From positions 1 through 64,000 of the IMG/VR virus record IMGVR_UViG_3300038441_001101: DNA of 64,000 nucleotides; one strand, 5' to 3'. Under the pieces are notes generated by a model, which was not told the origin of the DNA, did no database searches, and saw nothing but the letters and a program-made list of their open reading frames with translations. The stretch comes from a virus. The translations under genes were made by a program, and so were the position numbers. How positions within the stretch are numbered: the stretch's first letter is position 1; each line of letters begins with the position of its first letter. Below are positions 667 to 43,019 of this stretch, piece by piece.

Positions 667-861
667 ATGAATATATTCGAGTTCGGTATGGAAGACATTG
701 AGCTGAGCCTGTGGGCCGCTACGCTCATCCTCCTGCCCTGGTCCCTCCTGCGCAGGAAGCACGATTTATTCTGCGGTATACTTCTAGCATTCTTTATGCT
801 GGGCATTGGTGTCATGGCCCGGATCCACACGATGGGTAACGTCTGCATTTGCGTTCCTTAG
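667..861 (+). CDS. Small two-segment membrane protein
   Basis: A 64-residue protein with two hydrophobic stretches (about residues 15-30 and 36-52) separated by a basic turn (RRKH), typical of a small inner-membrane hairpin. It starts at ATG 667 behind GGAGAATGA and sits between the tail fibre and the response regulator. It could be a holin or antiholin because lysis genes follow, but nothing in the sequence proves this. Confidence 0.5.
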   Translation: MNIFEFGMEDIELSLWAATLILLPWSLLRRKHDLFCGILLAFFMLGIGVMARIHTMGNVCICVP

Positions 862-891: not shown

Positions 892-1878
892 ATGGCAATC
901 TCCAACGGCAAATCCAAGTTGCAAGTCTTGATCGTTGAAGACAACACGGATGACGTCTATTTGATTGTTGAATGGCTCAAGAAGGAATGGCATGTAGTCT
1001 GGCACAGGGTGGAGAACGAGCCTGCCCTGCTGCTGGCGCTGGACGATCCCTGGGACGTCATCATCTGCGACGTGCGACTCCCGACATTGAGCGCCGAGCG
1101 AGTGCTGTCGGTGACCACCGAGTATCTGGCCTTGCGGCGTTGGTCGCTGATCCCCATCATCATCGTCAGCGGGATTGTGGACGAGAACGAGGCCATCGCC
1201 TACCTCAAGAAAGGCGCGAGGGACTTCATCTCGAAGGACAAGATGCAAAGGTTGGCCCTGGCGATCAAGCGCGAGCTGCGGCACGGTGGGGAGCTGCTGG
1301 CCTCCAGGCTGAAGATCGAGGAAGCCTACGATGCAGTCATCGAGGCCTGGGGCAAAGCAATGGAGCTCAGAGACCATTACACCAGTGGGCACACCGACAG
1401 GGTCACGACCCTCTCCCTGCGTCTCGCAATCGAGATGAACATCCCCCGCAAGGACTTCATCAATCTGAATCGCGGGGCAGCCCTGCACGACATTGGCAAG
1501 ATGGGAATCCCGGATGCGGTACTGCTGAAGCAGGACGAGCTGACTCCGGAAGAAAGGGAGATCATGAAGATGCACCCCACGCTGGGATACGAGATGCTCA
1601 AGAACATCCCCTTCCTGAAGGATGCGGTGGACGTGCCTTACTGCCATCACGAGCGCTGGAACGGCACGGGCTACCCGCGTGGACTGGCGGGAACGGACAT
1701 CCCCCTGCTGGCGCGCATCTTCGCAGTGGTGGACGTCTACGACGCCCTTACCAGCGACCGTCCCTACCGCAAGTCCTGGGAGAAGTCCCAGACGATTGCA
1801 TTCATCATCGAAGAACGCAACATCTCCTTTGACCCGGAGGTGGTCGACGCGTTCATCAACATGATTGGAAGAGGCTAG
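892..1878 (+). CDS. Response regulator with receiver and HD-GYP domains (probable cyclic-di-GMP phosphodiesterase)
   Basis: This 328-residue protein has an N-terminal receiver domain (about 10-130: LIVEDN acidic pocket, ICDVRLP with the phosphoacceptor Asp, and SKDK at the conserved Lys) and a C-terminal HD-GYP domain (about 145-328: SGHTDRV, LHDIGKMGIPD, HHERWNGTGYP, VVDVYDALTSDRPYR). All signature residues of an active HD-GYP phosphodiesterase look present. The family hydrolyses cyclic-di-GMP in the cytoplasm. Bacterial two-component parts are rare in phages. The gene starts at ATG 892 behind AGAAAGGAA and lies between tail and lysis genes, so it is probably expressed late. A partner kinase is not visible in the window. 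Confidence 0.93.
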   Translation: MAISNGKSKLQVLIVEDNTDDVYLIVEWLKKEWHVVWHRVENEPALLLALDDPWDVIICDVRLPTLSAERVLSVTTEYLALRRWSLIPIIIVSGIVDENEAIAYLKKGARDFISKDKMQRLALAIKRELRHGGELLASRLKIEEAYDAVIEAWGKAMELRDHYTSGHTDRVTTLSLRLAIEMNIPRKDFINLNRGAALHDIGKMGIPDAVLLKQDELTPEEREIMKMHPTLGYEMLKNIPFLKDAVDVPYCHHERWNGTGYPRGLAGTDIPLLARIFAVVDVYDALTSDRPYRKSWEKSQTIAFIIEERNISFDPEVVDAFINMIGRG

Positions 1879-1879
1879 C

Positions 1880-2443
1880 ATGGGCGTGGAGACTCCGGTC
1901 ACCTTTGGAGGCCTGATCATCGCCGTCATCTTCGTCACGGTGCTCAACTTTGCGCCGCGCCTGTACGATTGGCTCAAGCTGCGGGCCGAGATTCGCGAGC
2001 GGGAAGCCCAGGCCAAGCGAGAGACGGAGATGCGGGCCCTCCAGATCGAGGAGGAGAAGGACGAGAAGGTCTGGGACAGGGTTGTCCGCGAGTATGAGCG
2101 GCAGATCGATCGGGGCAGCAAGCTGGAGATCGAGCTGGAGCAGCTGCGCCCGCTGGCCCTGGCGAATGCAATCCTGGAGCAGAAGATGCAGCAGTGCCGG
2201 GAGGACAAGGAAGACTGGAAGACCCATGCAACTGGCCTGGAGCAGCAGCTCACGGAGCACAACATCATTCCTAGACCGTTCCGCAGGCTTCCGCGATTCG
2301 AGGACACGCAGGAAAGGCTCAAGACGATCAGCAAGAAGATGAAGGCAATCAAGGAAAGCAACGGTATCCAGGAGAAGGCGGACGGAGGCTCTCCCACGCT
2401 GATCCTTCCCCCAATAGATCCGACAACAGGAGAAAAGAAATGA
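1880..2443 (+). CDS. Membrane-anchored coiled-coil protein, spanin-like
   Basis: An N-terminal hydrophobic segment (about residues 8-28) is followed by a long charged helix rich in Glu, Arg and Lys (about 35-130), then a Pro-rich tail. This architecture matches i-spanins (Rz-like) or phage membrane coiled-coil proteins. The ATG at 1880 is preferred over an upstream TTG at 1865 because GGAAGAGG lies at the right distance. It ends in an ATGA overlap with the lysozyme gene, suggesting translational coupling. Spanin function is inferred from topology and neighbourhood. Confidence 0.6.
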   Translation: MGVETPVTFGGLIIAVIFVTVLNFAPRLYDWLKLRAEIREREAQAKRETEMRALQIEEEKDEKVWDRVVREYERQIDRGSKLEIELEQLRPLALANAILEQKMQQCREDKEDWKTHATGLEQQLTEHNIIPRPFRRLPRFEDTQERLKTISKKMKAIKESNGIQEKADGGSPTLILPPIDPTTGEKK

Positions 2444-3486
2444 TACTCGGTGGTGACTACTCTCACTGGGATGCAGTCCTGGACTGGCCCAATCATGATT
2501 GGAAATATGCCTTCATCAAGGTCAGCGAGGGCACTGTGGAGGACAGTGTATTCAAGGAGCAATGGAAAGCGGCACATGATCGGGTGTATCGCGGTGGATA
2601 CCACTTCTTTCGCCCCCTGGTGCCCTGGAAGTCTGCGGCAGAAAAGTTCATGCAGTTGATGGATCGGGAAGGCCTGGGCGAGCTCCCGCCCGTCTTGGAC
2701 CTGGAGGCCACCAACGGTGTCAGTAACAACGGCATCTGTACGTCTGCGCTGGAGTGGCTGCGGTACGTCCACCGAGAGAGTGGACAGCGCCCACTCGTGT
2801 ACACAGGCCCAGGCTTTGCGGACAGCATCCGCCTCTGGAGGTACATAGAGTTCTCGGACTATCCCCTCTGGCAGGCAACCTATCCCTGGGACACCATCAG
2901 TAATACCTGGTCGGAGGCGCAGCGGGAGCAGCGACTTGGAGAGATTGTCCACGGTGATTACGCAGTCCACTTCCCGGTGGCAGCCCGGCCCTGGCAGGAC
3001 GTTGGTCGCAGTGCAACCTTCTGGCAGTTCACGGGAGCCTGCCCACCGATCTTCGTTCCAGGCTATCCCCTCGGGAACAAGAAGGAAGTGGACGTCAACC
3101 TGTACAGGGGCACGCTACAGGATCTTATATTCCAGTTCAACCTACCGGAACTGGGAGGAGGAACAGTGGTCGATAAACCTATTACATGGAAAGCAACGTT
3201 GAAGGATGGACAACAGGCCAGGGTTCGCAATGCCCCTGGGATCACCGGGACGTCCATCCTGGAGCTGCTGACAGGCCCGCTGTCTTTGCAGGGCACGGGC
3301 TCCAAGATCTTCAAGGATGGTTATTGGTGGGCAGAGCTTGTATTGCCGCGCCCAGGCTGGATTGCCTTCACGACCAGCATCACAGTCCCAGAATGGATCG
3401 TGCCGATGCCCTCCAAGAAGGTGGTCAAGAGCACCCTGGAGTTCGACGACGGCTCCGTGGAGGAGCTCTTCCCGAAGCAGTCATGA
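2440..3486 (+). CDS. Endolysin, GH25 family lysozyme with C-terminal SH3-like region
   Basis: The first ~220 residues carry GH25 muramidase marks: GGDYSHWD at the N-terminus, FIKVSEG, the catalytic-region PVLDLEA, LWQATY, and the closing WQFTG / VDVNLYRG. GH25 enzymes cut the MurNAc-GlcNAc bond of peptidoglycan. Residues ~250-320 (ARVRNAPG to WIAF) look like a bacterial SH3 cell-wall binding domain. There is no signal peptide, so release would need a holin. The start overlaps the upstream gene by ATGA. Confidence 0.93.
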   Translation: MILGGDYSHWDAVLDWPNHDWKYAFIKVSEGTVEDSVFKEQWKAAHDRVYRGGYHFFRPLVPWKSAAEKFMQLMDREGLGELPPVLDLEATNGVSNNGICTSALEWLRYVHRESGQRPLVYTGPGFADSIRLWRYIEFSDYPLWQATYPWDTISNTWSEAQREQRLGEIVHGDYAVHFPVAARPWQDVGRSATFWQFTGACPPIFVPGYPLGNKKEVDVNLYRGTLQDLIFQFNLPELGGGTVVDKPITWKATLKDGQQARVRNAPGITGTSILELLTGPLSLQGTGSKIFKDGYWWAELVLPRPGWIAFTTSITVPEWIVPMPSKKVVKSTLEFDDGSVEELFPKQS

Positions 3487-4286
3487 CGAAGCAGACCGTC
3501 CATTACGACGACGGGACATTCGATGTCCTGACGCACCCTCTCCAGTATTACCGGCACAAAGGTGACGTGGAGATCAAGGGCCGCCTCCGCAGCTGCGCCA
3601 CCCCCGAGGGAGCTTCCCCGAACACCAACGGCTGTCCGGCTGTGTGGACGATGCTGGACGAGATCCAGCCGTTGAACAAGTACTGGCAGTTCGCGCTCTG
3701 CGGCTGGAATCCAGGGATCCCTCCCAAGAGCGTGATGGCGGAGCTGGGTGGCACGCGCGCCCTGGCCAACCGCCTCGGGTACGGCATGGGGAAGAACCTG
3801 ACGAACTGGCCCGTGGGATCCAACACGGACTCCCCGTACGATCCAGCTTTTGACAAGGTCAGGACGATGTCGCACAGCATGCTCAGTGGGGTAGCTGCGC
3901 CGGAGGGCAAGCTGTGGTTCCGGGACTACAGAACCGACAGGATGAAGATGTATACGGGTTATCTGATCGTGGACTTGTTTGACGGGAGCAAGAATCCACC
4001 CATGAAGCCTGGCAAGCGTCAGCCCGAGACGATGTCTGAGGTGAACTTCGAGAACTACCTGTACAATCCCCGCGACCACTGGCACCTGTTCTTTGCATTG
4101 AACATCGTCAACTTCAGCGGGGAGCTCGTCCCGTTCGCAGGTGGAGCAACCTACCCGTGGTTCTTTGAAGGCAAACATCCCGTCTGCTTCATGCCGCATG
4201 TGTCCCGAAAGCAGGTGCTGTACCCGTTGGAATTGTTGGAGGAGTTACCGTTAGGGACTCCCCGTGTCAGACCATACACCAAATAG
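3483..4286 (+). CDS. Hypothetical late protein next to endolysin
   Basis: The protein has 267 residues and I do not recognise its family. It starts at ATG 3483, overlapping the lysozyme stop (ATGA). It has no membrane segment or signal peptide. Its sequence is rich in aromatic and Pro residues with two Cys near residue 35-50 (SCATPEG, NGCPAVW). The overlap and co-orientation suggest co-translation with the lysozyme, so a role in lysis or as a virion protein is possible. Confidence 0.7.
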   Translation: MTKQTVHYDDGTFDVLTHPLQYYRHKGDVEIKGRLRSCATPEGASPNTNGCPAVWTMLDEIQPLNKYWQFALCGWNPGIPPKSVMAELGGTRALANRLGYGMGKNLTNWPVGSNTDSPYDPAFDKVRTMSHSMLSGVAAPEGKLWFRDYRTDRMKMYTGYLIVDLFDGSKNPPMKPGKRQPETMSEVNFENYLYNPRDHWHLFFALNIVNFSGELVPFAGGATYPWFFEGKHPVCFMPHVSRKQVLYPLELLEELPLGTPRVRPYTK

Positions 4287-4294
4287 GAGATGAA

Positions 4295-4690
4295 ATGAAA
4301 AGATTGCCGTTTGTTGTCGTATTTGTTTTGTTACTGTTGACCGCCTGCACCCCGACTGTCACGCAGCTGCAGACCAGCAATGCCGTCCAGGTCAACCCCA
4401 CGCTGTTTGACGGCCTGCTTGTTGCACTGTTCACAGCCGGGACAATCTACTTGTTCGAGAAGTTCGGATTGGACCTGCGACAGTATGCCGTCCCGGTTGC
4501 ACTCTCCACCTCCACATTCTTTGTCGGCATCCTGCAGGGCTGGATCAACGTGCAGCCCGTCGAGTCCGATCCGTGGATCATACTGGGACTTCGCATTGCA
4601 GCAGCCCTCCTGGCAGGCTTCGGAACCTTGCGCCTGTTCAGCAGGCAGCCTGCCACATTGCTGGAGCATGGATCCAGTCAGCGCCACTGA
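4295..4690 (+). CDS. Lipobox-containing membrane protein, holin-like
   Basis: The N-terminus MKRLPF plus a hydrophobic run ending LLTAC resembles a lipoprotein signal with a lipobox Cys at about residue 18. Two further hydrophobic segments follow (about 42-58 and 65-82) with a third near 95-112. The protein of 131 residues ends just before a strong terminator and follows the lysozyme group, so holin or outer-spanin-like roles are both possible. The upstream GGAGATGAA fits the ATG start. Confidence 0.55.
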   Translation: MKRLPFVVVFVLLLLTACTPTVTQLQTSNAVQVNPTLFDGLLVALFTAGTIYLFEKFGLDLRQYAVPVALSTSTFFVGILQGWINVQPVESDPWIILGLRIAAALLAGFGTLRLFSRQPATLLEHGSSQRH

Positions 4691-5506: not shown

Positions 5507-5741
5507 CCAATCCTCTTTCTACTGTCCTCACAGGTTGAACCTGTTTTCGCAGTTCGTTATATCGCCGTTCGGCATCGGCGTTGGTCCAATAGATGGCGCG
5601 AGAAGTTGTGCCATCTGGATTGTTCACAGTCTGGGACAAGAGGAACCTTGCCGCCAGTGTCTGCATCTCACTGTTGATTCTAGCCATCCGCATTCTGTCC
5701 ATTGGACTCCTTTCGGACATGCTCTGTTGGTTGACTGGCAT
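5484..5741 (-). CDS. Hypothetical protein
   Basis: 85 residues, basic and polar, with a SEMQTLAARFL helix and NADAERRYNELRK segment. It overlaps both neighbours by 23 and 62 bases, typical of compact phage operons. No family recognised. Confidence 0.55.
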   Translation of the reverse strand: MPVNQQSMSERSPMDRMRMARINSEMQTLAARFLLSQTVNNPDGTTSRAIYWTNADAERRYNELRKQVQPVRTVERGLDGNDTRG

Positions 5742-6060
5742 CTGTGATCTTGGGCCACTCCCTCCCCCTGTTGATGTTCTGCTTCTCGATCAGAGCCGAG
5801 GCGATCTGCTCGGGAGTGTAGCCCTCCCGTCCGGCTCCATCAAATGCCAGTATGATGATGTCCATCCACTCCAGCAAGTTGTGCGGGAATCTTCTGACTT
5901 CCTCCACTTCCTTCTCGATGTGCTTGAGCAAGCCTTCCGTGTGATTCCCTTCCCCGAATGTTTTCAGAGACCACTCCTGATGCTCCTGGATGTATTCCTT
6001 GATGGTCATCATCTTCACTTGATACAGACTAGGTTGTGTCTTTCTTCTGATTAGGCTCAT
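5680..6060 (-). CDS. DUF550 / MazG-like dATP/dGTP diphosphohydrolase
   Basis: Residues ~18-105 match the DUF550 family (TIKEYIQEHQEWS, EKEVEEV, EWMDIIILAFDGA, GYTPEQIASAL, REWP). The EKEVEEV and EWMDIIILAFD acidic helices are the metal-binding pattern of MazG-type all-alpha NTP pyrophosphohydrolases. Characterised members remove pyrophosphate from dATP or dGTP; in Z-genome phages the relative MazZ makes dGMP for dZTP synthesis. No PurZ gene is seen here, so a nucleotide-pool role is more likely. Start at 6060 follows GGAG. Confidence 0.85.
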   Translation of the reverse strand: MSLIRRKTQPSLYQVKMMTIKEYIQEHQEWSLKTFGEGNHTEGLLKHIEKEVEEVRRFPHNLLEWMDIIILAFDGAGREGYTPEQIASALIEKQNINRGREWPKITDASQPTEHVRKESNGQNADG

Positions 6061-6406
6061 GCGATTTTCTCCAGTTCATGTATTGTTGAATCACTTTCTC
6101 TCGCTCCTGTTTTGGAAGTCTCCTCCACGCAAGGAGATACTCTGGCAGTGGAACTTTCTGTATTGGTGGAGCTTTCCCGGATTTCTTTTTTGTCAGTGGT
6201 AGGAATAATTTCCTCCTCGCCTCTTTTCCCTTCTCGGACCTATCTGTTGGCTCCACTCCATTCTTCAACAGCTGCCAGACTCGTGCCGGATTTACTCCAA
6301 GAGACTCTGCTGTCTTGTAACAGTTCCCATGAAACTTCTTATAGCGTCTCCATAGTCTCGGAGGAGTATTTGGATGCGGAGTTTCAATCGTGCCAGGCTT
6401 TCTCAT
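6029..6406 (-). CDS. Putative helix-turn-helix DNA-binding protein
   Basis: 125 residues. The section AESLGVNPARVWQLLKNG (about 30-47) reads like a helix-turn-helix of the phage terminase-small/repressor kind. The remainder is very basic. The ATG at 6406 overlaps the stop of the HNH gene (ATGA), which favours this start over 6439. Could be a regulator. Confidence 0.55.
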   Translation of the reverse strand: MRKPGTIETPHPNTPPRLWRRYKKFHGNCYKTAESLGVNPARVWQLLKNGVEPTDRSEKGKEARRKLFLPLTKKKSGKAPPIQKVPLPEYLLAWRRLPKQEREKVIQQYMNWRKSHEPNQKKDTT

Positions 6407-6786
6407 TTCCTCCCACTCCCATAAACCCAACGATGCCACTCCGGTCTCCGAAAGTGATAACCCTCGTCGTTGACTTCCTCTGTCCTTTCAATGAGGGTCA
6501 GTCCAGAATCATCTTCATCTCCAGATGTTGTAATCTCCTTGATTGTCCTCAGAGGAGTTTCAGATGCTTCAACGGAGCGTTCACATTTTCTGCAAAGCGT
6601 CAGAAGGTTCTCAAGGACAGCCCTACCACCCTCCGGCTTTGGGATGACATAGTGTGCCACGATTCTCTTGCCCTGTTTGTTCTTTCTTCCGCAACGTTTA
6701 CATGTGAACTTGTCACGCTCAAAACAACTTCTTCGCACCTCCTTCCAGGCTTTCCTGGACTGTTTTGGTACCCTTGCAGTACGCAT
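6403..6786 (-). CDS. HNH endonuclease
   Basis: 127 residues with the HNH fold pattern: CKRCG zinc knuckle, AHYVIPKPEGG (the first His of HNH), then NLLTLCRKCE. Two CxxC pairs hold the structural zinc. HNH proteins of this size act as nicking or double-strand nucleases. The start at 6786 is set by AGGAGG 6 bases upstream; the frame is open to 6975 but the extra part lacks support. Neighbour is a possible DNA-binding protein. Confidence 0.87.
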   Translation of the reverse strand: MRTARVPKQSRKAWKEVRRSCFERDKFTCKRCGRKNKQGKRIVAHYVIPKPEGGRAVLENLLTLCRKCERSVEASETPLRTIKEITTSGDEDDSGLTLIERTEEVNDEGYHFRRPEWHRWVYGSGRK

Positions 6787-7002
6787 CGCTAGCCTCCTGT
6801 AACGCCAACAGGTGTCCTTGTAATCGTTTTTGGTCTTGTAAGGCACCCGTCTACGGGTAGTGGAAAATTGTGTAACAAAACTCCCCTTGCGGTTTTTATA
6901 TTTTATAAAAATGAAGCCAGGTTCCCAGTCTAAACTTTTGGCTGAAAAACCTGACCTCGTTTCGTTCGGTTGCACGTACGTGCGTGCGGGAAAGCCTACG
7001 TT
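6787..7002 (-). other. AT-rich gap, possible promoter region
   Basis: No convincing gene. The minus strand has an AT tract (TATAAAATATAAAA near 6895-6910) that could hold a -10 element for the HNH operon, and an ACCCG-TAGA-CGGGT hairpin around 6845-6860. A hairpin AAGCCTAC/GTAGGCTT (6992-6999 / 7008-7015) overlaps the 3' end of the upstream gene and may be a weak terminator. All are tentative. Confidence 0.3.
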
Positions 7003-7668
7003 TTAGGGTAGGCTTGATGTTAGGGCGGGGGTGGGGTTACGCGCCTGCCGGAGGAGCTCTTGCAGGTCGTACTCCTTCTTGACCCACTCAGAAGAATATT
7101 CCCAGAAGTAAGTGATGCCCTTTTCGGTGAGCTGGAACCCGCTCAAGTTGTTCTTGGGATTGCGCAATTGGATCAACCCAGCGCGGAGCAGCTCGTGCTT
7201 GATTTCACGGATCTTGGACGAGCCAATCACGGTGTCCTTCCAGTCACTCTCTGCTAACGTCTTCGTTCCCGTGAGTAGACCATCCGCGATGACTTGCGTG
7301 CGTTCTGGTGACAGGTTCAATGTGAATACCTTCATTGCATAGATGTCACTCTCACCTGCTTCTCCGGTGACGTTGCTCTGGAGCTTGACTGTTCTGGGAG
7401 GAGTGATAAATCCGAGTGTACCCCAAAGCTCCGGAGGTGTCTTCTGGAGCTTGTCAATGTCCCGACCAACGTTCTGCCAGTACTCGGAATACTTCTCGAT
7501 GGTGATGGAGACTGCAATACTGACACAGGTGACCAGACAGACAATTGCAACAACGACGAACGCCACACCTGTCTGCCAGCTCGGAAAGAAGCCCGTCACA
7601 ACTGCTGTGACCAACAGGATGATGATCGGTAATAGGATGTGTTGCGGTTTGGGTACATAGGAAAACAT
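7003..7668 (-). CDS. Membrane-anchored protein with winged-helix-like C-terminus
   Basis: 221 residues. Two hydrophobic segments at about 11-30 and 34-56 form an N-terminal membrane hairpin. The C-terminal ~90 residues (SKIREIKHELLRAGLIQLRN, GFQLTEKGITYFWEYS) look like a winged helix-turn-helix of the MarR/transcription-factor type. This suggests a membrane-tethered DNA- or protein-binding regulator. Exact function unknown. Confidence 0.6.
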   Translation of the reverse strand: MFSYVPKPQHILLPIIILLVTAVVTGFFPSWQTGVAFVVVAIVCLVTCVSIAVSITIEKYSEYWQNVGRDIDKLQKTPPELWGTLGFITPPRTVKLQSNVTGEAGESDIYAMKVFTLNLSPERTQVIADGLLTGTKTLAESDWKDTVIGSSKIREIKHELLRAGLIQLRNPKNNLSGFQLTEKGITYFWEYSSEWVKKEYDLQELLRQARNPTPALTSSLP

Positions 7669-7711
7669 GAGGCGATCATTATACCCCTTTTTGGAAAGGG
7701 CTGAATACTTC

Positions 7712-8044
7712 TCACAGAGTCATCTCGAGGACTTTCAGTAATTGCTCGTAGTCGTGGCAGTGGATGCCCTCCTTCCACCGCTTTCCGATGGCCAGCTTGC
7801 CACTGGAAGGCCACCACTCGATCATCTTGGATTGGTATGTGTAGAAGATCCAGTGGTGACCGTTGTTCCTGATGTTCAATCTCCATTTGTGTTGTTGGCA
7901 CCAGAGGTCTACTTTGTCCTTGTTATCCAGAGCCACTTGCATCCTGCGATGATGACGGGCCTGCCAGCTCTCACTCTCCACGTACGGGACGAGACTGCTT
8001 CTTCCGATGCGATACTTGTCGGGGTTTCTGTATCTTTTTCTCAT
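7712..8044 (-). CDS. Hypothetical protein
   Basis: 110 residues, rich in Trp, His and Lys (HKWRLNIRNNGHHWIFY, IEWWPSSGKLAIG). Start at ATG 8044 follows AAAGGAGAAT. It overlaps the 3' end of the methylase gene by 74 bases. The WPSSGK-containing segment recalls small conserved phage proteins of unknown function. Confidence 0.65.
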   Translation of the reverse strand: MRKRYRNPDKYRIGRSSLVPYVESESWQARHHRRMQVALDNKDKVDLWCQQHKWRLNIRNNGHHWIFYTYQSKMIEWWPSSGKLAIGKRWKEGIHCHDYEQLLKVLEMTL

Positions 8045-8753
8045 ATTCTCCTTTCTGGAAAAAGGATAGTTGTGTGACATCATAGTCGGTGGGCAGGTTA
8101 CTCCAGATGGCTTCTGTGGTGAACGTGTTTGCTACCCCATTGATCATCTTCATGGGGTAGAAGGGGAGCCAATCGGCTTTAGTGTTTTCGCAGACAATCA
8201 CTTGCCCTTTGCGGGTACGACACCATTCAGCCAGGGATTGGAAATCCAGGTTCTTGTTGCCTTCTGTATAACCTTCACCACCATATTGATAAGGAGGATC
8301 GATGAACCAGGTGGCTTCCATGTTCTCCAGATCTTCATAGGATCCATGGACAATGTTCCAGTTCTTGATCTTATGGAGATGGGAGAGAGTCCGCTTTTTG
8401 AATCTCCTGTACTCTTGTTCTCCGAACTCGGTAACAGTCCATCGTCCATTACCTCCTGCTCTGGAACAAAGGAATCTTCCCAGGTTGAAAGCCTCTTCGC
8501 AATCAAACATCTCCTTGGAAACCCTGTCGCCTTTCTTCAAGACAGGGAACCTGAGGATGTCCTCTCTACTACATTGTTGGAACCATTTCCATATTCCAAC
8601 AACCTTCTTATCCTTGTCGACAAGGGTGATGTCATGATCCCAGTAAAGTAGGCTGTAACGGGCTGTCCCAGCAAACGGCTCAATGATCCTGTCAAACTTT
8701 GGTTTGGGATACAGGTGGACTATCTTGCTCTTAGAACCGTAATAAGGCCACAT
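7971..8753 (-). CDS. DNA adenine methyltransferase (D12 class, Dam-like)
   Basis: The 260-residue protein has the D12 class order: YYGSKSKIV near the N-terminus, the SAM-binding motif IEPFAGTARYS (about 23-33) and the catalytic FIDPPYQYGG (DPPY, about 150). It should methylate adenine N6 in a short DNA site; specificity cannot be read. It lies next to the clamp gene in the replication/modification block and may protect phage DNA from restriction. The last ~25 residues are very basic. Confidence 0.92.
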   Translation of the reverse strand: MWPYYGSKSKIVHLYPKPKFDRIIEPFAGTARYSLLYWDHDITLVDKDKKVVGIWKWFQQCSREDILRFPVLKKGDRVSKEMFDCEEAFNLGRFLCSRAGGNGRWTVTEFGEQEYRRFKKRTLSHLHKIKNWNIVHGSYEDLENMEATWFIDPPYQYGGEGYTEGNKNLDFQSLAEWCRTRKGQVIVCENTKADWLPFYPMKMINGVANTFTTEAIWSNLPTDYDVTQLSFFQKGEYEKKIQKPRQVSHRKKQSRPVRGE

Positions 8754-8759
8754 GCAACC

Positions 8760-9857
8760 TCACAACACGATCGGCATGATCACATGGTAGAAGGTATCAA
8801 ACCCTTTCATCTTGAAGACGATAGGGGAGTTCTTGTCCACCAGCTCCACAGTGACGTACTCCGTCTTGCAGACCTCCAGGAACTCGTGTAGCAAGTGAAC
8901 ATTGATCCCCACCTCCACGTCCTTGCCCTTCTTGATGGCCGCGAACGTGATGTCGGCATCACCCTTCTCCTGGGTGATGGTGGAGTAGCGCATGAGCATG
9001 CCAGTGATAGCCAGCTTGGACTTCCCGGTCTCTGAGGCAAAGACGCGGATCTGTCGGGCAGCCCGCAACAGTTCCATGGTTGGAATGCTCAAGGTAGTGG
9101 AGGGCTCAGAGATTGCCTGTCCCAATCGTTTATGATCCGGGAACTCTCCCTGCAACAACTGTGTAATCACATCCACACTGCCGGAATGGAACATGACCTT
9201 GCCTGTCCCAACCTGCACCTGGAGCTCGCCTTCCTCGGGCAGGATCCTGGAGATCATTTCCAGGGTCGTACCCTTGATGATGAAGGGAGTGTTCTCGGTG
9301 TTGATCTTGCCAGTGAGAGCAGTCTCCTCGTAGGAGAAGTGAAAACCGTCCACTGCGAACATGATCATCTTTTTACGTTCAATGGAAATCTGAACGCCAC
9401 CCAGTACCGAGTCGGAGGTGGCACTGCTTGCGAAGGCTACACGTTGAACCATCTCTTTGAACTGTGTAACCGACATTGTGAAGCTGGGCTCTTCTACACC
9501 AGGGATGTCCGGGAACTCATCCGCAGGCGCACAGTGGATGTTACTCGTGGACGTCTCCGTCATTACCGTAATGGACTGGTTCTTAGGATCCAGTTCCAGG
9601 TCAACCTCGTCGGAGTGGAGGGCTTCCACCAGGCTGGAGATGGTCTTGGCGGGAATACACGTCTTGAACTTCTTGCCCTTGGATGGGAATGTATAACCGA
9701 TTCCAATCTCCAGGTTGGTCGCTGCCACACGGGAGCTCCCGTTAGCACTTTCGAACAGGATGTTGCTCAATAGAGGGAGTACCGGATTGGCACCCACAGC
9801 TTTCACAACAGTGCCAACTGCCTTGGATAGCAGATCTTTACGAACGGTAGTTGTCAT
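8760..9857 (-). CDS. dnaN: DNA polymerase III beta-like sliding clamp
   Basis: 365 residues, the length of bacterial DnaN (about 366). Recognisable marks are PVLPLLSNILFE in domain 1, ATNLEIGI, the PADEFPDIP motif between domains 1 and 2, and a C-terminal VIMPIVL like the MPMRL end of DnaN. The clamp encircles DNA and tethers polymerases. ATG 9857 follows AAGGAGTAAT. No phage DNA polymerase is seen in the window, so it may recruit a host polymerase or the nucleases nearby. Confidence 0.93.
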   Translation of the reverse strand: MTTTVRKDLLSKAVGTVVKAVGANPVLPLLSNILFESANGSSRVAATNLEIGIGYTFPSKGKKFKTCIPAKTISSLVEALHSDEVDLELDPKNQSITVMTETSTSNIHCAPADEFPDIPGVEEPSFTMSVTQFKEMVQRVAFASSATSDSVLGGVQISIERKKMIMFAVDGFHFSYEETALTGKINTENTPFIIKGTTLEMISRILPEEGELQVQVGTGKVMFHSGSVDVITQLLQGEFPDHKRLGQAISEPSTTLSIPTMELLRAARQIRVFASETGKSKLAITGMLMRYSTITQEKGDADITFAAIKKGKDVEVGINVHLLHEFLEVCKTEYVTVELVDKNSPIVFKMKGFDTFYHVIMPIVL

Positions 9858-9858
9858 A

Positions 9859-10077
9859 TTACTCCTTGAAGATGGACTTCTGTCCATCTGATTTTTGACG
9901 TTCCTGACGTTCCTTGCGGCCGGGAGTTCCGATGTGTGTAACCTTGCCACGATGGTCGCACTTGTCGCATTTGATCACGGTGCCCTGGAGCAGCTGCGCC
10001 TCCAGGACGGAGTCCACTTCCACGACGAACAGGTGTGGATGGTTCTCTAGCATTACCTCAACTTCAAAGTCAGGCAT
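9859..10077 (-). CDS. Small zinc-finger-like protein
   Basis: 72 residues with one CDKCDHRGK pair and a basic tail (GRKERQERQKSDGQK). Two ATGs (10083, 10077) follow the ribosome site GGAAGGAGA; 10077 has the better spacing. It sits just before the clamp gene and may bind nucleic acid. Confidence 0.55.
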   Translation of the reverse strand: MPDFEVEVMLENHPHLFVVEVDSVLEAQLLQGTVIKCDKCDHRGKVTHIGTPGRKERQERQKSDGQKSIFKE

Positions 10078-10230: not shown

Positions 10231-12420
10231 TCATTCTCCTTTCATCAACAGTTCCACGTTTCTGGAACGCAGGCTACTGGCGAACTTCCTCCAGGTCACG
10301 ACGACCTCCGGAGGCAGGTTATTCTTGCGATATTCCAGTTCTGTGTACTCCGGATACACCTTGTTCAGGGCTTCCGCATCCCCGCTTGTAATGTAAAGTC
10401 CACTAGCGCCACCTCCAGGAAGCTCCGCAAAGTGAACAGAGAATGCGTTGTGTACCACCGTAACGTATCCATCGACAATGTGCTTGAGGGCAAACTCGTA
10501 GTCTTCGTACAGTTTGAGTGCAGGGTTGAAGCCCTGGCCCGTCTGGATGTTGACCAGCATGAGACCACGCACAGCATCGTTGACCGTGAACGGGAGACTA
10601 TTATCTTCTCCATTGATGTTCACACCTAGCAACGCTACGTTGGAATAGTCTTCCACCCAGCGTTCCAGTGTGCTGAACAGGGCCCGTAACGTGGAAGCCT
10701 CCCTGCTTTGATCTAACACTGCATCAATATCGTCATCCAGTATCCACGCATAAGGGTAGCCCTGCTCCTTACAGGTGGCATAGATGTATTCTCTGGCAGC
10801 TCCAGTCCCGATCGCTCCCTTGGGGAGTACCATCACGTCTGCATTGGGGAATCTATCATGGTAGTGATCCAGGTCTGTGCTTGGAACAACAAGAGTGTAG
10901 TTGATACGGGAGTTGTCCAACAACTTCATTGTGGTGGCTGTAGCCCAGCGCCTACGGCTGATCACATAGATTGGATATGCCACGTGCCCAAAGTTCGTTC
11001 CGTCCGCAGTCATTTCATCGAAACGTTCCGCATTAGGCTTGCCAGCCATGCGCAGCTGGAACGCCAACTCATTCACGGAGCCTATCCTTACGCCCTCTTC
11101 AATGAAGGGCTTGTTGTACAGGTAGATGATGTCCCCGTTGTCATCTGGAGCAGAGGCTACCAATGCGCCACCAAAGTACCGATTCGGGCTCTGCCAAGAG
11201 TTTGGTGTATTCCAGATGTCGTGCATGTAGTCATACATGGATTGATAACGACGCTTGGCACGCTCCACGCTATCCGATGGAAATCCTTCAGCGGTATAGA
11301 CTTCAATTCCACTGAGAACCTCATGAGCCTCCTCAGCGATATCCGACCAGGTCACGTAACCCTTCTCTCTGGCGATCAGGATTGCATGAGCGTACTGCCC
11401 GTGGTTGACATTGGATAACGGGCCCGTTTCCGGGAGTCCACAGCAGCCCGCGTGGTAACTGTCCTCTTTATGGTGTGCATCACTCACAAAGAATTTCAGG
11501 TTATGGCGTTCAGCGGAGTCTTTCATCTCCAGGATGTAGGGTCGCTTGAGATCATAGTTCAACCGGAGCAATCCACTGGCTCGCGCGCTATTCTTCATGT
11601 AGAAGTCCCAGACGTCGTACCCCAGCGTTTTACTCATGGCGTCCAGGCGTTCCTTGGAGGTGTTACTAGCACGCGACTCCCAGGTGAGGAACTCCGTGGT
11701 AACGCTATAGCATCCAGCATCCTCCGCCAATGTCATCATTTCTTCGATGCACTTGTCACTGGTGCCCAGTACAAAGGGCCGGAAGCGCAGGGTGGTCGCG
11801 CCCACTCCCATCTTGTTCAGCTTTTCCATGGCCGCAAAGCGTGCCCGTGCAAGAGGGACACCTGGCTCCAGCTTCTTGACGTGTTCCTCAATGCTGGATA
11901 TGATGGAGTACTTCCAGTGCATGTTCTTGGCACCTGTGCAGACCTCGATGTACTCCGAATCATCAACCCACCACACACCTTTCGTGCTAATGGAAATCGG
12001 GTAGTCGATCTCACGGAAGAAACGTAGCAGCTCCAGAGACTTCCGGAACTTGCGCTCGTACCAGTCGAAGCCATCACTGAGCCCACCCCACTGGAGCACC
12101 ATGCGCTTCTTGATGTAACCTGCGAACTGTCCACCGAACTCATCCGGGTGTAGGAACATACGCTTGATCTTCTCGATGTTCACCGGGCGAACCTTGTGGT
12201 GTAGATAATCATCCGCACCATCTCCAATAGCTCGCTGGAAGAAGCTGAAGCAATACAGACACTGATGCGCACAGTTACTGTACGTATCAAATGTCATGGG
12301 CATGGCACAATCTAAAATCTCATAGGTCCACCTCGGTGAACCGTAGAACCCCTCATCCAGCTTCAGTCCACCCATACTATCCGACTTGTCAGTTTTGATA
12401 TTCTTTGGTTTTGGGGGCAT
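10231..12420 (-). CDS. Radical SAM protein fused to GT-A glycosyltransferase (probable DNA base modification enzyme)
   Basis: 729 residues. The N-terminal half (about 20-330) is a radical SAM domain: CAHQCLYC gives the CxxxCxxC iron-sulfur motif at residues 50-57. The C-terminal half (about 490-700) resembles the GT-A family linked to TET/JBP dioxygenases in phages: IYVISRRR, VLPKGAIGTGAAREYI and the metal-binding ILDDDID at about 560. Those transferases add sugars to hydroxylated DNA bases. A fusion with radical SAM is an unusual arrangement. The gene opens a cluster with kinase, sulfotransferase-like, helical and amidotransferase proteins, so a role in DNA hypermodification is inferred. Substrate unknown. 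Confidence 0.8.
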   Translation of the reverse strand: MPPKPKNIKTDKSDSMGGLKLDEGFYGSPRWTYEILDCAMPMTFDTYSNCAHQCLYCFSFFQRAIGDGADDYLHHKVRPVNIEKIKRMFLHPDEFGGQFAGYIKKRMVLQWGGLSDGFDWYERKFRKSLELLRFFREIDYPISISTKGVWWVDDSEYIEVCTGAKNMHWKYSIISSIEEHVKKLEPGVPLARARFAAMEKLNKMGVGATTLRFRPFVLGTSDKCIEEMMTLAEDAGCYSVTTEFLTWESRASNTSKERLDAMSKTLGYDVWDFYMKNSARASGLLRLNYDLKRPYILEMKDSAERHNLKFFVSDAHHKEDSYHAGCCGLPETGPLSNVNHGQYAHAILIAREKGYVTWSDIAEEAHEVLSGIEVYTAEGFPSDSVERAKRRYQSMYDYMHDIWNTPNSWQSPNRYFGGALVASAPDDNGDIIYLYNKPFIEEGVRIGSVNELAFQLRMAGKPNAERFDEMTADGTNFGHVAYPIYVISRRRWATATTMKLLDNSRINYTLVVPSTDLDHYHDRFPNADVMVLPKGAIGTGAAREYIYATCKEQGYPYAWILDDDIDAVLDQSREASTLRALFSTLERWVEDYSNVALLGVNINGEDNSLPFTVNDAVRGLMLVNIQTGQGFNPALKLYEDYEFALKHIVDGYVTVVHNAFSVHFAELPGGGASGLYITSGDAEALNKVYPEYTELEYRKNNLPPEVVVTWRKFASSLRSRNVELLMKGE

Positions 12421-12422
12421 TA

Positions 12423-12638
12423 TTATTCTGCCTTTCTGACAGAGACTAGCTCAACTACCAACGAGTAGGTAAAATGGAAACTCATTACACAACTCTTCTT
12501 TTTGATACCAGAGCAGGGAACAACTTTCTCTATTTCACCATTCACTGCAATTGGATCCTTCTTCAGATCAATCTCGATTGTCGTTGTCTCCCCGCAATGT
12601 GGGCATATTCGCTTGAAACTAGGATTCTTATTTACCAT
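12423..12638 (-). CDS. Small zinc-ribbon protein
   Basis: 71 residues with ICPHCGE near the N-terminus and two further Cys (VPCSGIKKKSCV), fitting a zinc ribbon. ATG 12638 follows GGAG; it overlaps the stop of the kinase gene. Likely nucleic-acid or protein binding; function unknown. Confidence 0.6.
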   Translation of the reverse strand: MVNKNPSFKRICPHCGETTTIEIDLKKDPIAVNGEIEKVVPCSGIKKKSCVMSFHFTYSLVVELVSVRKAE

Positions 12639-12640
12639 AT

Positions 12641-13225
12641 TCAACTCCAGAATGATTTGATCTTACTCTTCACAGGAGTGGAAGTCCACTCTCCGTTGAT
12701 CTCTGCCACCAGCTCCAGGGCAGCCTGCTCCTTATCGGCTTTGGTATCGTTCTGTAAGTGGTGATGAACGGGATGAGTCATAGCCAGCCGATCCACTTTG
12801 GTCTCACGGCCCTTGCGCCAGCTGACGTTCTGCTCCGAACGGGCATTGCGGCGCTGCTCCAGGAGCTTCCTACTCATGGAAACGATACATAGGACAACTT
12901 CAAAGTGTTCCTCCAGGAAGGCCAGCATCTTCTCGTTGAACAACCGATCCCCTTCAAAGAAGATTACTTTACCACCGGAAGCCTTGCTCAATAGGAACTT
13001 CTGCGCTTCGGGCTGTACGTTCAATGGAAATCTGTCAGTACCAGGGAACGTCTCAGAGGGAGCATACGTTCCTAATATGATCAACTCTTTGGACTCCATC
13101 CAGGAGACGATGCCTTTGCGCTCAGACTTGAACGTGTGACCTTGCTTCTCTAGCAACTCAATCATCCTGCGAACAATGGTACTCTTGCCGGAGCCTGGAT
13201 AGCCTCCCACAACGATCACTTTCAT
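12641..13225 (-). CDS. P-loop kinase, candidate DNA base (5-hydroxymethyl-dU) kinase
   Basis: 194 residues. A Walker A motif GGYPGSGKST is at residues 7-16, and IFFEGDR near 90 could act as the Walker B/acceptor site. The fold is a nucleotide/small-molecule kinase. In thymidine-hypermodifying phages, P-loop kinases of this size phosphorylate 5-hydroxymethyl-dU in DNA to prime it for amino-acid transfer. Here it lies beside an amino acid:DNA transferase-like gene, which supports that reading. It could also be a general nucleotide kinase. Confidence 0.72.
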   Translation of the reverse strand: MKVIVVGGYPGSGKSTIVRRMIELLEKQGHTFKSERKGIVSWMESKELIILGTYAPSETFPGTDRFPLNVQPEAQKFLLSKASGGKVIFFEGDRLFNEKMLAFLEEHFEVVLCIVSMSRKLLEQRRNARSEQNVSWRKGRETKVDRLAMTHPVHHHLQNDTKADKEQAALELVAEINGEWTSTPVKSKIKSFWS

Positions 13226-13246
13226 GGCACTCTCCTTCTACTGTTG

Positions 13247-14569
13247 TTATTCATATCCGTAACGCTTTGCCTGCGAACGGATTCCATCTGCCAGTGACTT
13301 GCCTACCTGGAGTTCCAGCTCCGCCCAGGTCAATGGTTCATATTGGCCCCAGCCGCTGGCCTGGTTGGTTGCACCGAGCTGCGGGTCAGGTGTACCAGGC
13401 AGCTCCAGGACGTCCATTAGGTCACCCCAGTGATCATGGATCTGCTCCAATTGACAACGATACTCCGCTTGCTTGCTCTCGTCGATCCTTTTATTAATCC
13501 CATAATACATGGAAGCATTCCTGTAAATGCTGCTCCCGTCCATGGCCTTTGGGTCCATTGCGCCATTGTCAGCCCAGAACTCGGGGTTGATCGCTGGATA
13601 GTTCCGCATGAGGCTTGGAATGCACCACAATGGGTGACGAACGATATGTAACACATGAGCATAGGTATAGTCACTACGACGTTCACCAACGTTAGCACAG
13701 TCTCCACCGCCATAGACCGGGAACCAGGGATACCAGTCGTGATCGACCGCAAACTCTGCCCCAGAGCAACCGTCTTTTCCATTCCGTTGGTGACCAACGT
13801 CCAGTCCTAACATTGTCAGCAGATCACTGAAGTAGGTTGTCCCGCTGCGGCCCGTACCCGTAACTAACACGTGCCGTTTGACGGAGCCCTGTTTGGACTT
13901 TGACAACGGATCCACTCCCCACTTCTCCTCGTCCATTTTCTTATGAACATACTTCTTTGGATACCAGTGGATCTGTCGTTGCCTGGCCTCGGAGTAGTAC
14001 CTCCGCATCATGGTGGACAAGGGTGTCTCGACGGGATCGGTATCCGCGCTGGAGACCTTTTCCAGGGTCTTTATTGGATAAACCAGTCCATACTGATGGG
14101 ACATCCTTTTCGAGATGATCAGGGAGGTGGTCTTTTCTGTTGAGTAGGAAATCCATACAGCACCGAGTGGCTTGTTCTGGCTGATCTTGACGATCCGCTC
14201 CAGTTGTTTATAGTCTGCATTTGGATACGTGTGAGCCAACAGGTAACAACTGAATTTCAATTTCCCTTCGGTTTCCATCTTGCGGAACTGTCGCAGGGTA
14301 CTCTCGTTCAGCTTGAGCCTTGTCCAGATCTGCCAATTCGTTGCAGCGTATTCCTCCACCAACTGAAGCAGAGCCTTCATTGGAAATCTCACGGACTGTT
14401 CCCCCGAGACGACAAGTACTGCCTGTCTTGACCAGCTACAGATAGATAAGCCTCCCTCTGAGTGTTCCAGTTTGGACTTTCCGTACGTTCCAAGCTGTTC
14501 AATCAGCTCCTGATAGAACTTCTCCTGGACTTCCTCAGAGCTGCTTTCCACGGAAATCAAATCTAGCAT
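13247..14569 (-). CDS. Sulfotransferase-like protein with unknown N-terminal domain
   Basis: 440 residues. From about 225 a PAPS-type sulfotransferase pattern begins: HVLVTGTGRSGTTYFSDLL (5'-phosphosulfate binding loop) and a later HIVRHPLWCIPSL (3'-phosphate binding segment). Residues 1-220 are of unknown type. ATG 14569 is chosen because CAGGAGG lies 7 bases before it. Such proteins transfer a sulfo group or have lost that activity; the acceptor is unknown. Context with DNA modification genes suggests a base or carbohydrate acceptor. Confidence 0.78.
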   Translation of the reverse strand: MLDLISVESSSEEVQEKFYQELIEQLGTYGKSKLEHSEGGLSICSWSRQAVLVVSGEQSVRFPMKALLQLVEEYAATNWQIWTRLKLNESTLRQFRKMETEGKLKFSCYLLAHTYPNADYKQLERIVKISQNKPLGAVWISYSTEKTTSLIISKRMSHQYGLVYPIKTLEKVSSADTDPVETPLSTMMRRYYSEARQRQIHWYPKKYVHKKMDEEKWGVDPLSKSKQGSVKRHVLVTGTGRSGTTYFSDLLTMLGLDVGHQRNGKDGCSGAEFAVDHDWYPWFPVYGGGDCANVGERRSDYTYAHVLHIVRHPLWCIPSLMRNYPAINPEFWADNGAMDPKAMDGSSIYRNASMYYGINKRIDESKQAEYRCQLEQIHDHWGDLMDVLELPGTPDPQLGATNQASGWGQYEPLTWAELELQVGKSLADGIRSQAKRYGYE

Positions 14570-14583
14570 GTATTTACCTCCTG

Positions 14584-15561
14584 TCAAAATAATGAGAGCT
14601 GTTTAGACTGCGTCCCGGCTCCATTCCATAACTGGCTATTGTCCTTGCCGGTCTTTTCTATGAGCAACTCAAATGGATAGAACTCTTCCCGGAACTGCCA
14701 TAATACCTCCCAGCAGACACCCTCCTGGACGTTCTTCTGCATGGAAGAGATTTCTTTGGCTTGTCGAGTAATGTAGTAACCTGGATAACGTTTCCCACGA
14801 TGCCACTTCTTATAGGCACACAACGTGGTTTCCACATTCCAGATGTCCACTCGTGTACCTGGGGACTCCTTTCGCATTAGGCTCAAAAGTTCTTTGAACT
14901 TTTTGTGTAGCCACTCCATTTCGGAACTAGAGATGTGATCCCTGCCGTAGTTGTGACCACATAATAGATCATCTCGCCCGAGCGCAAAACATAGTCCGTT
15001 GCGGGAGGACTGTGCCTCTTCGAGTGGAAAGTAGTCAGGCTCAATAGGTAGATCAGTAACCACATGTACAGCCTCCAATAAAAGGAAGAGTTTGAACCTA
15101 CCCATATACTTGACGTTCTTGAAATAATCGTAGCAGGCTTGATAGGGACTGCTGCTTGATTGAATTGCCCTCGAGACAATCTCATGATAAGTGTTCTCCT
15201 GATCTTCTCCGCAAAGACTGCGATAGTCCATGTACATTCCCACGAACAGGTTCGAGGATCGTATCCACCTACAGTCCGTTTGGAAATCCAGCTGGTGGCG
15301 GTGGGCATTCCACCAGCGCTCCAGCCGTCCAACGTCCACACCCAGGTAATCCGGGAACTCGTTATAGATGTAGAATACCGTCGCGGCATTATAGCAAGTA
15401 GCGTACAGATATGCCAACCAGTAGCGCTGTTCCATGTTCAGCTCGAAGCGGTCACAGACATACTTCAGCAGTTCATAGCTTGGATCAATGTCCTTGAGCT
15501 CCTCACTGTAACGGTGGTACTCCAGGAACTCCCGCACGCGTCCTTCGTTGATTAGAGCCAT
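14584..15561 (-). CDS. Helical protein resembling amino acid:DNA transferase / alpha-glutamyl-putrescinyl thymine pyrophosphorylase
   Basis: 325 residues, mostly helical. The stretches LNMEQRYWLAYLYAT, YNEFPDY, WWNAHRHQLDFQTD and RWIRSSNLFVGM recall the helical family predicted and shown to act on 5-pyrophosphoryl-methyl-dU in hypermodified thymidine phages, where an amino acid or polyamine displaces the phosphate. The identification rests on recalled motif similarity, not on a search. It overlaps the amidotransferase gene by 10 bases and follows the kinase and sulfotransferase genes in the same operon. Confidence 0.6.
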   Translation of the reverse strand: MALINEGRVREFLEYHRYSEELKDIDPSYELLKYVCDRFELNMEQRYWLAYLYATCYNAATVFYIYNEFPDYLGVDVGRLERWWNAHRHQLDFQTDCRWIRSSNLFVGMYMDYRSLCGEDQENTYHEIVSRAIQSSSSPYQACYDYFKNVKYMGRFKLFLLLEAVHVVTDLPIEPDYFPLEEAQSSRNGLCFALGRDDLLCGHNYGRDHISSSEMEWLHKKFKELLSLMRKESPGTRVDIWNVETTLCAYKKWHRGKRYPGYYITRQAKEISSMQKNVQEGVCWEVLWQFREEFYPFELLIEKTGKDNSQLWNGAGTQSKQLSLF

Positions 15562-42388: not shown

Positions 42389-43019
42389 CGAGGCGGGGAG
42401 CCCGATGTTCCTGGAGCGCATCACCGGCATCATCCATGTTGGTGCGAATGCCGGGCAGGAGAGGGAGCTGTATGCGGAGCACAGTCTGCATGTGCTGTGG
42501 ATCGAGCCGATCCCGGAAGTGTTTGACGCATTGGTGGAGAACCTACGGGAATTCCCCAGGCAGCGGGCTGTTCGAGCCCTGCTCTCCGAGAGGGACGACA
42601 GATTGGAGACCTTGCATGTTGCCTCCAACCAGGGCATCTCTTCCTCCATCCTGGCCCTGGCTCAGCACCAGGAGATCTTCCCGGAGATCCATTACGTGGA
42701 CTCCATCCCGTTGCCGACCGTCACGCTGCCCACCCTGCTCAGGAGGGAGCGGATTGATCCGGGATGCTATCAGGCTTTGCTGTTGGATGTGCAGGGCGCG
42801 GAGCTGCGGATCCTGGAGGGCAGCATCCCCATGCTGTGCAACTTCGACTACATCCAATTGGAAGTGGCGGACTTCGAGTCCTATCGGGGATGCTGCAAGC
42901 TGGTGGACATCGAACGTTTCATGTCCATGAATGGATACGTAGAGCTGGAGCGAGTTGTATGTCCGCTGCCCGTCGGGAACTATTACGAGATGGTGTATTG
43001 CAGGGAGAGCTCATCATGA
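42381..43019 (+). CDS. FkbM-family methyltransferase
   Basis: 212 residues. GIIHVGANAGQE gives the SAM-binding motif and LLLDVQGAELRILEG the second FkbM signature. Family members O-methylate sugars or other hydroxyls. ATG 42381 is embedded in an ATGCATGA overlap with the previous stop. It ends in an ATGA overlap with the fused glycosyltransferase, so the two are coupled. Confidence 0.9.
   Translation: MHDEAGSPMFLERITGIIHVGANAGQERELYAEHSLHVLWIEPIPEVFDALVENLREFPRQRAVRALLSERDDRLETLHVASNQGISSSILALAQHQEIFPEIHYVDSIPLPTVTLPTLLRRERIDPGCYQALLLDVQGAELRILEGSIPMLCNFDYIQLEVADFESYRGCCKLVDIERFMSMNGYVELERVVCPLPVGNYYEMVYCRESSS

Follow-up and report, generated by a model that had tools for sequence, protein, structure and literature searches.

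A receiver-HD-GYP protein encoded among lysis-type genes in an uncultivated phage, and the recurrent linkage of viral HD-GYP genes to a coiled-coil membrane protein

Among the described proteins that most resemble the one considered here are the bacterial HD-GYP proteins PmGH, RpfG, and TM0186, all c-di-GMP phosphodiesterases. RpfG and TM0186 combine a receiver with an HD-GYP domain, and c-di-GMP controls biofilm formation and motility in many bacteria (PMC4159591, PMC12072042). Within the family, the Y/F subfamily is predicted to be binuclear, and replacement of the PmGH residue E185 by alanine reduces activity without abolishing it (PMC4159591). Other HD-GYP proteins, the V-cGAPs of V. cholerae and PmxA of M. 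xanthus, cleave 3'3'-cGAMP. HD-GYP proteins are also encoded by jumbo phages; the accessible part of the paper describing them (PMC7824862) reads them as counter-defence enzymes, and mentions neither a link to lysis genes nor a receiver domain.

On the lysis side, holin-like proteins with one transmembrane (TM) helix occur in mycobacterium and gordonia phages (PMC13056207, PMC9671378). LysF1b, which is found in mycobacteriophage lysis cassettes, is a single-TM protein of N-out/C-in orientation with a highly charged cytoplasmic part; its deletion spoils lysis timing and burst, and it behaves like a holin (PMC13056207). A coiled coil is reported to be absent from the 1-TM proteins of PMC9671378.

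The protein analysed here, P0001, is encoded in an IMG/VR virus record of 66,463 bp; the window, that is, the whole stretch of DNA under analysis, comprises 64,000 nucleotides (bases 1-64000 of the record). In contrast to the phages of PMC7824862, this 66 kb phage is not a jumbo phage. Where contig end and contig start are joined, the frame encoding a 587-aa tail-region protein runs through unbroken, as would be expected if the genome were circularly permuted or nearly complete. No DNA-level relatives were found among named phages, and searches of the record for an integrase and for a histidine-kinase ATPase domain (HATPase) were negative. The + strand carries the terminase, portal, head protease, and capsid genes between 38.5 and 55.7 kb, and its gene run continues past the contig end into 1-4.7 kb. 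Thus, from gene order and strand only, the gene for P0001 at 892-1878 would most simply be a late gene. The features of this region are:

667..861, + strand: possible membrane ORF of 64 aa, a possible small holin-like gene (tentative; ORF, hydropathy, GGAG stretch 5')
892..1878, + strand: receiver-HD-GYP protein P0001, 328 aa, ATG start (Pfam, conserved catalytic residues, AF2 model, structural matches)
922..1266, + strand: receiver domain of P0001, residues 11-125 (PF00072, AF2 model)
1360..1842, + strand: HD-GYP catalytic domain of P0001, residues 157-317 (Pfam HD_5, Foldseek)
1880..2443, + strand: CC-TM protein, 187 aa, predicted to have one TM helix at its N-terminus (7-25) and a charged coiled coil on the cytoplasmic side (hydropathy, flanking charges, AF2, homologues)
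2440..3486, + strand: GH25 endolysin, 348 aa (Pfam Glyco_hydro_25, E 6e-21; PHROG endolysin)
3480..4286, + strand: conserved protein of unknown function, about 268 aa (29% identity to L027 4326-5183; profile matches)
4295..4690, + strand: 3-TM holin-like protein, 131 aa (hydropathy, homologues near HD-GYP)

Elsewhere in this phage, DNA hypermodification genes occupy 10231-15561 (- strand). They encode an ADDT amino acid:DNA transferase (14584-15561; PF18724, E 3.5e-20), a weakly sulfotransferase-like protein (13247-14587), and a 729-aa protein (10231-12420) that has a TAGT glycosyltransferase C-terminus (E 8e-25) and, in its N-terminal part, a radical-SAM-like CX3CX2C motif (PF04055 E 0.007, below cut-off). 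The phage also has its own DNA polymerase III beta clamp, complete with its three domains, at 8760-9950 (- strand). On the + strand, between terminase and portal, a 790-aa fusion protein (42764-45136) joins GT11-type glycosyltransferase, galactosyltransferase-like, and methyltransferase domains; L057, whose HD-GYP is the nearest to that of this phage, has a 708-aa relative next to its terminase. The head maturation protease-like protein (52096-53235, + strand) has a ParB-like C-terminal part.

The initial annotation of 892-1878 as a phage gene for a receiver-HD-GYP protein is borne out. The ORF has exactly these bounds, follows an AAAGGA Shine-Dalgarno-like stretch just 5' of its start, and lies in a virus record; its product matches Response_reg (PF00072, residues 12-125, E 5e-11) and HD_5 (residues 157-317, E 3e-39 in the protein and 2.5e-41 in the record), both above the curated cut-offs. 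In the AlphaFold model (11-row alignment, mean pLDDT 90.4), a long helix spanning residues 115-160 links the two domains. The structures that match the model are receivers (Z 17-20) and HD-GYP proteins (Z 19-25), the best of the latter being PA4781, PmGH, and DvhD (Z about 25). The receiver had been described as intact, and its pocket is indeed complete, with the acidic pair E16/D17, phospho-acceptor D60, S93, and K115. Given that the record holds no HATPase domain, phosphorylation of the receiver would need a host kinase.

That all motifs of an active HD-GYP enzyme are visible, as was also claimed, is correct for the core set and requires amendment for one metal ligand. The residues H167, H199-D200, K203, H228, H252-H253, G260-Y261-P262, D281, D284, and R290 are present in P0001, whose HD-GYP domain is 39% identical to PmGH (4mcw; Foldseek), and PmGH residues H189, H221, D222, H250, H276, H277, and D305, together with K225 and D308, are all matched. 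This leaves seven of the eight PmGH metal ligands in place; the eighth, E185, is Tyr163. Because the E/D-T-G (trinuclear) subgroup is recognised by a carboxylate as eighth ligand, P0001 falls instead into the Y/F subgroup and is predicted to bind two metals. From its sequence, P0001 looks catalytically competent.

Compared with PmGH, RpfG, and TM0186, P0001 has the same fold, the HD...GYP core, and the seven ligands, and it shares its two-domain build with RpfG and TM0186. It differs from all three in having Tyr163 in place of the bridging Glu185 (PmGH numbering), and in being phage-borne, inside a lysis cassette, with no kinase domain detected in the phage record. The HD-GYP fold is also common to the 3'3'-cGAMP phosphodiesterases V-cGAP3 (5z7c) and PmxA. 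V-cGAP3 has, like P0001, a YTxGH start with a Tyr at the Glu185 site, but it contains two HD-type domains, unlike P0001.

The placement of the gene beside lysis genes, already noted in the initial annotation, is confirmed. The HD-GYP, CC-TM, GH25 endolysin (2440-3486), and 3-TM genes lie on the same strand and form a lysis cassette in which the first three are adjacent or overlapping, the endolysin gene overlapping that of CC-TM by 4 nt. That the HD-GYP and CC-TM genes lie so near each other would fit co-production of their products or contact between them. The AF2 model of CC-TM is a single helix (9-126) with the low pTM expected of a lone helix, and its flanking charges predict an N-out/C-in orientation. 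Homologues of CC-TM were found in other viral loci (L064, 52%; L065, 34%, E 2e-20; L017, L041, L166, and L168). The 3-TM protein has homologues near HD-GYP genes in L065 (49% over 74 aa), L008/L024, L018, L025, L026, L032, L067, and L068, and the 268-aa protein has them in L027 and L008/L024. Upstream, the 667..861 ORF has about two hydrophobic stretches, one of which is above the TM threshold; the gene call is tentative, since its coding score is only marginal and no homologue was found.

Neither the CC-TM nor the 3-TM protein was found among named phages, and neither matched characterised lysis families, so position and topology are what make them candidates for a role in lysis. Like LysF1b-type proteins, CC-TM has one N-terminal TM helix, a predicted N-out/C-in orientation, a highly charged cytoplasmic part, and an endolysin neighbour. 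Unlike the 1-TM proteins of PMC9671378, it is predicted to form an extended helix or coiled coil, and unlike LysF1b-type proteins it has HD-GYP as a frequent partner. In its position and topology, CC-TM is a holin-like candidate of the LysF1b kind. A reading as an i-spanin (Rz) was ruled out because the flanking charges place the coiled coil in the cytoplasm. Relatedness to XhlA is unsupported, appearing for one relative only (E 0.21).

A single-sequence search found no close relatives of P0001 in viral contigs, and relatives were found instead by a degenerate DNA scan of IMG/VR with the motif HHE..[DN]G[ST]GYP. The strict scan gave 66 contigs, at least eight of which encode full-length receiver-HD-GYP relatives (L027, L055, L008/L024, L020, L011, L052, and L065; 40-56% identity to P0001). 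The earlier impression that few phage genes have both domains thus understated their number, and phage HD-GYPs as such had been reported from jumbo phages (PMC7824862). In the family alignment, invariant columns are confined to the HD-GYP part. Residues H167, H199, D200, K203, H228, D281, and R290, which lie outside the retrieval motif, are each found in 57-65 of the 65 viral sequences, and the missing residues mostly reflect truncated contigs.

The N-terminal part is more variable. In the L020 receiver, both the acidic pair and the Ser/Thr are gone, in that of L008 one acid is missing, L018 and L032 have another N-terminus that appears PAS-like by eye, and many other viral HD-GYPs have no sensor at all (about 190-230 aa). 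Across the 65 viral sequences, the constant part is evidently the set of catalytic residues and not the receiver. The dN/dS values of 0.13 (L008/L024) and 0.17 (L027/L057) show that these relatives are under purifying selection. Between the near-identical phages L008 and L024 (HD-GYP genes at 876-1850 and 3642-4616, respectively), 35 of the 38 nucleotide differences in the HD-GYP gene lie in the receiver part (nt 1-339), and the two genes that follow are identical. Recombination or fast sensor change could account for this, with the sensor varying and the enzyme hardly at all.

In a quick tree of 133 HD-GYP domains, P0001 groups with L027/L057 (support 97), near L055, and most stand-alone viral HD-GYPs form a separate group. 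Given the starred branches of the tree, the label must switch between viral and bacterial three times or more, which makes several acquisitions of HD-GYP likely. The P0001 group adjoins mostly Chloroflexota (Anaerolineae) sequences, but this is only a lead to the host, since the bacterial rows were chosen for their similarity to P0001. The CC-TM family was not found in 396 genomes of the class of Anaerolinea, from which nothing firm on the host follows.

The gene neighbourhood recurs with variations in these phages, and endolysin, SH3b, or 3-TM genes lie close to HD-GYP in many loci. In L065, the order is receiver-HD-GYP, CC-TM, SH3b-like protein, 3-TM; in L008/L024, GH25 and the 268-aa homologue precede HD-GYP, CC-TM, and 3-TM; in L067 and L026, 3-TM, HD-GYP, and CC-TM are followed by terminase-like genes; L041 has HD-GYP, CC-TM, and GH25. 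GH25 directly follows HD-GYP with a 4-nt overlap in L019/L054/L058, and an amidase gene adjoins HD-GYP in L011. Receiver-type and stand-alone HD-GYPs both occur in this kind of cassette. Some stand-alone phage HD-GYPs have no CC-TM, and in L052 the HD-GYP gene lies elsewhere, adjoining a methyltransferase gene. The L018 cassette (5594-8435, - strand) contains two HD-GYP genes, one with a sensor and one stand-alone; a gene for a 3-4-TM protein separates them, and a CC-TM gene follows the second. A further recurrent neighbour is an SH3b-like protein of about 118 aa ('VPG[DE]YT...IR.QM') without obvious catalytic domain, encoded after the HD-GYP or CC-TM gene in many phages (L055 3410-3766, L018 5232-5588, L059 6948-7322, L175 5337-5693, L176 2493-2846).

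The strength of this linkage was assessed in IMG/VR phages with at least two HD-GYP lineages, with relatives merged at 60% identity. A CC-TM gene lies directly downstream of 17 of 35 HD-GYP clusters and of 9 of 336 other genes on the same contigs, giving a p of about 1e-13 (5e-10 to 1e-14 over 12 threshold settings) that is indicative only, since the CC-TM classifier was designed after examples had been seen and the phages share ancestry. With merging at 80%, the count is 21 of 41 clusters. For bacterial HD-GYP loci, it is 2 of the 51 that were testable.

The reverse search from CC-TM families, a small test in which only newly found loci were counted, placed HD-GYP next door in L168 and L176; L165, L166, and L177 lack HD-GYP, and the L171 locus is truncated. 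L166 has 3-TM, CC-TM, and GH25 together without HD-GYP. The existence of such cassettes indicates that HD-GYP is a common optional member and that lysis does not need it. A search from the first 3-TM alignment returned its own seed contigs alone, and is therefore not independent evidence. No account of this association was found in the open-access literature searched, which covered HD-GYP in connection with holins and endolysins, anti-CBASS activity, and auxiliary metabolic genes; P0001 is an enzyme of a known family in a setting without description in that literature. The recurrence of the linkage in many other phages was beyond the reach of an annotation of one stretch of DNA, and is the most informative feature of this locus.

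The tentatively preferred explanation, whose chance of being right is put somewhat below even, is that P0001 acts late in infection, as a cyclic-dinucleotide phosphodiesterase in the service of the lysis machinery. As a member of the cassette with an N-terminal receiver, it would be made late together with the cassette and would hydrolyse a host cyclic dinucleotide near the membrane, c-di-GMP in the first place and possibly 3'3'-cGAMP, close to or touching the downstream CC-TM protein. It might aid lysis or release by setting the trigger time of the holin-like proteins; alternatively, it might put the host envelope into a state that lets progeny escape. A host kinase would feed the receiver, which would be just one input among several that can replace each other.

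A serious rival, albeit an unlikely one, is counter-defence, in which the enzyme would remove 3'3'-cGAMP or related CBASS signals (in STING-type systems, c-di-GMP) and thereby keep effectors from killing the cell ahead of the burst. This role has been predicted for the jumbo-phage HD-GYPs, the substrate is that of the V-cGAPs and PmxA, and the P0001 model aligns to V-cGAP3 with Z 19.1. Phages do encode proteins that cleave cyclic nucleotides, such as Acb1, as cited in PMC12072042; the Pfam and structural matches of P0001 are to HD-GYP and receiver only, a different fold with which the same outcome is conceivable. However, repeated pairing with CC-TM and endolysin would be unexpected for a free-acting enzyme, and a receiver dependent on a host kinase would make little sense. 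Reprogramming of the host, the view of the initial annotation, in which a late drop in c-di-GMP loosens biofilm or filaments, or restores motility, and so lets progeny reach new hosts, is given an equally small chance; as a whole, the interpretation in that annotation is supported in part. The activity of RpfG and TM0186 and the processes under c-di-GMP control make a c-di-GMP/biofilm reading of P0001 plausible, but in the infected cell, a change of expression that comes just ahead of lysis would have little time to take effect, and the CC-TM pairing and the stand-alone HD-GYPs in the same slot are left unexplained.

It could also be that HD-GYP genes are passengers, acquired from hosts and tolerated at an insertion spot beside the lysis genes. 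The optional presence of HD-GYP in the cassette and the probable multiple acquisitions are in keeping with this. Nonetheless, it is quite improbable, being disfavoured by conservation: the catalytic residues are kept over deep viral divergence, dN/dS is low, and the same type of downstream partner is found across lineages.

The timing of phage lysis is usually ascribed to holins alone, with host physiology entering via membrane energy. Since HD-GYP genes lie beside lysis genes in many uncultivated phages that are unrelated to each other, some phages may couple the time of lysis to a second messenger of the host. In its fullest and rather doubtful form, this idea would have phages of several lineages gate lysis through an HD-GYP protein whose sensor can be exchanged (a receiver, PAS, or no sensor) and which docks on a holin-like membrane protein with a coiled coil, catalysis or the nucleotide-bound state setting the trigger. 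A cyclic-dinucleotide enzyme recurring in lysis cassettes would connect host signalling to the burst decision by direct chemical means, and would account for the retention of such enzymes by phages. The loci described here also provide a large sequence set on which the counter-defence idea can be tested.
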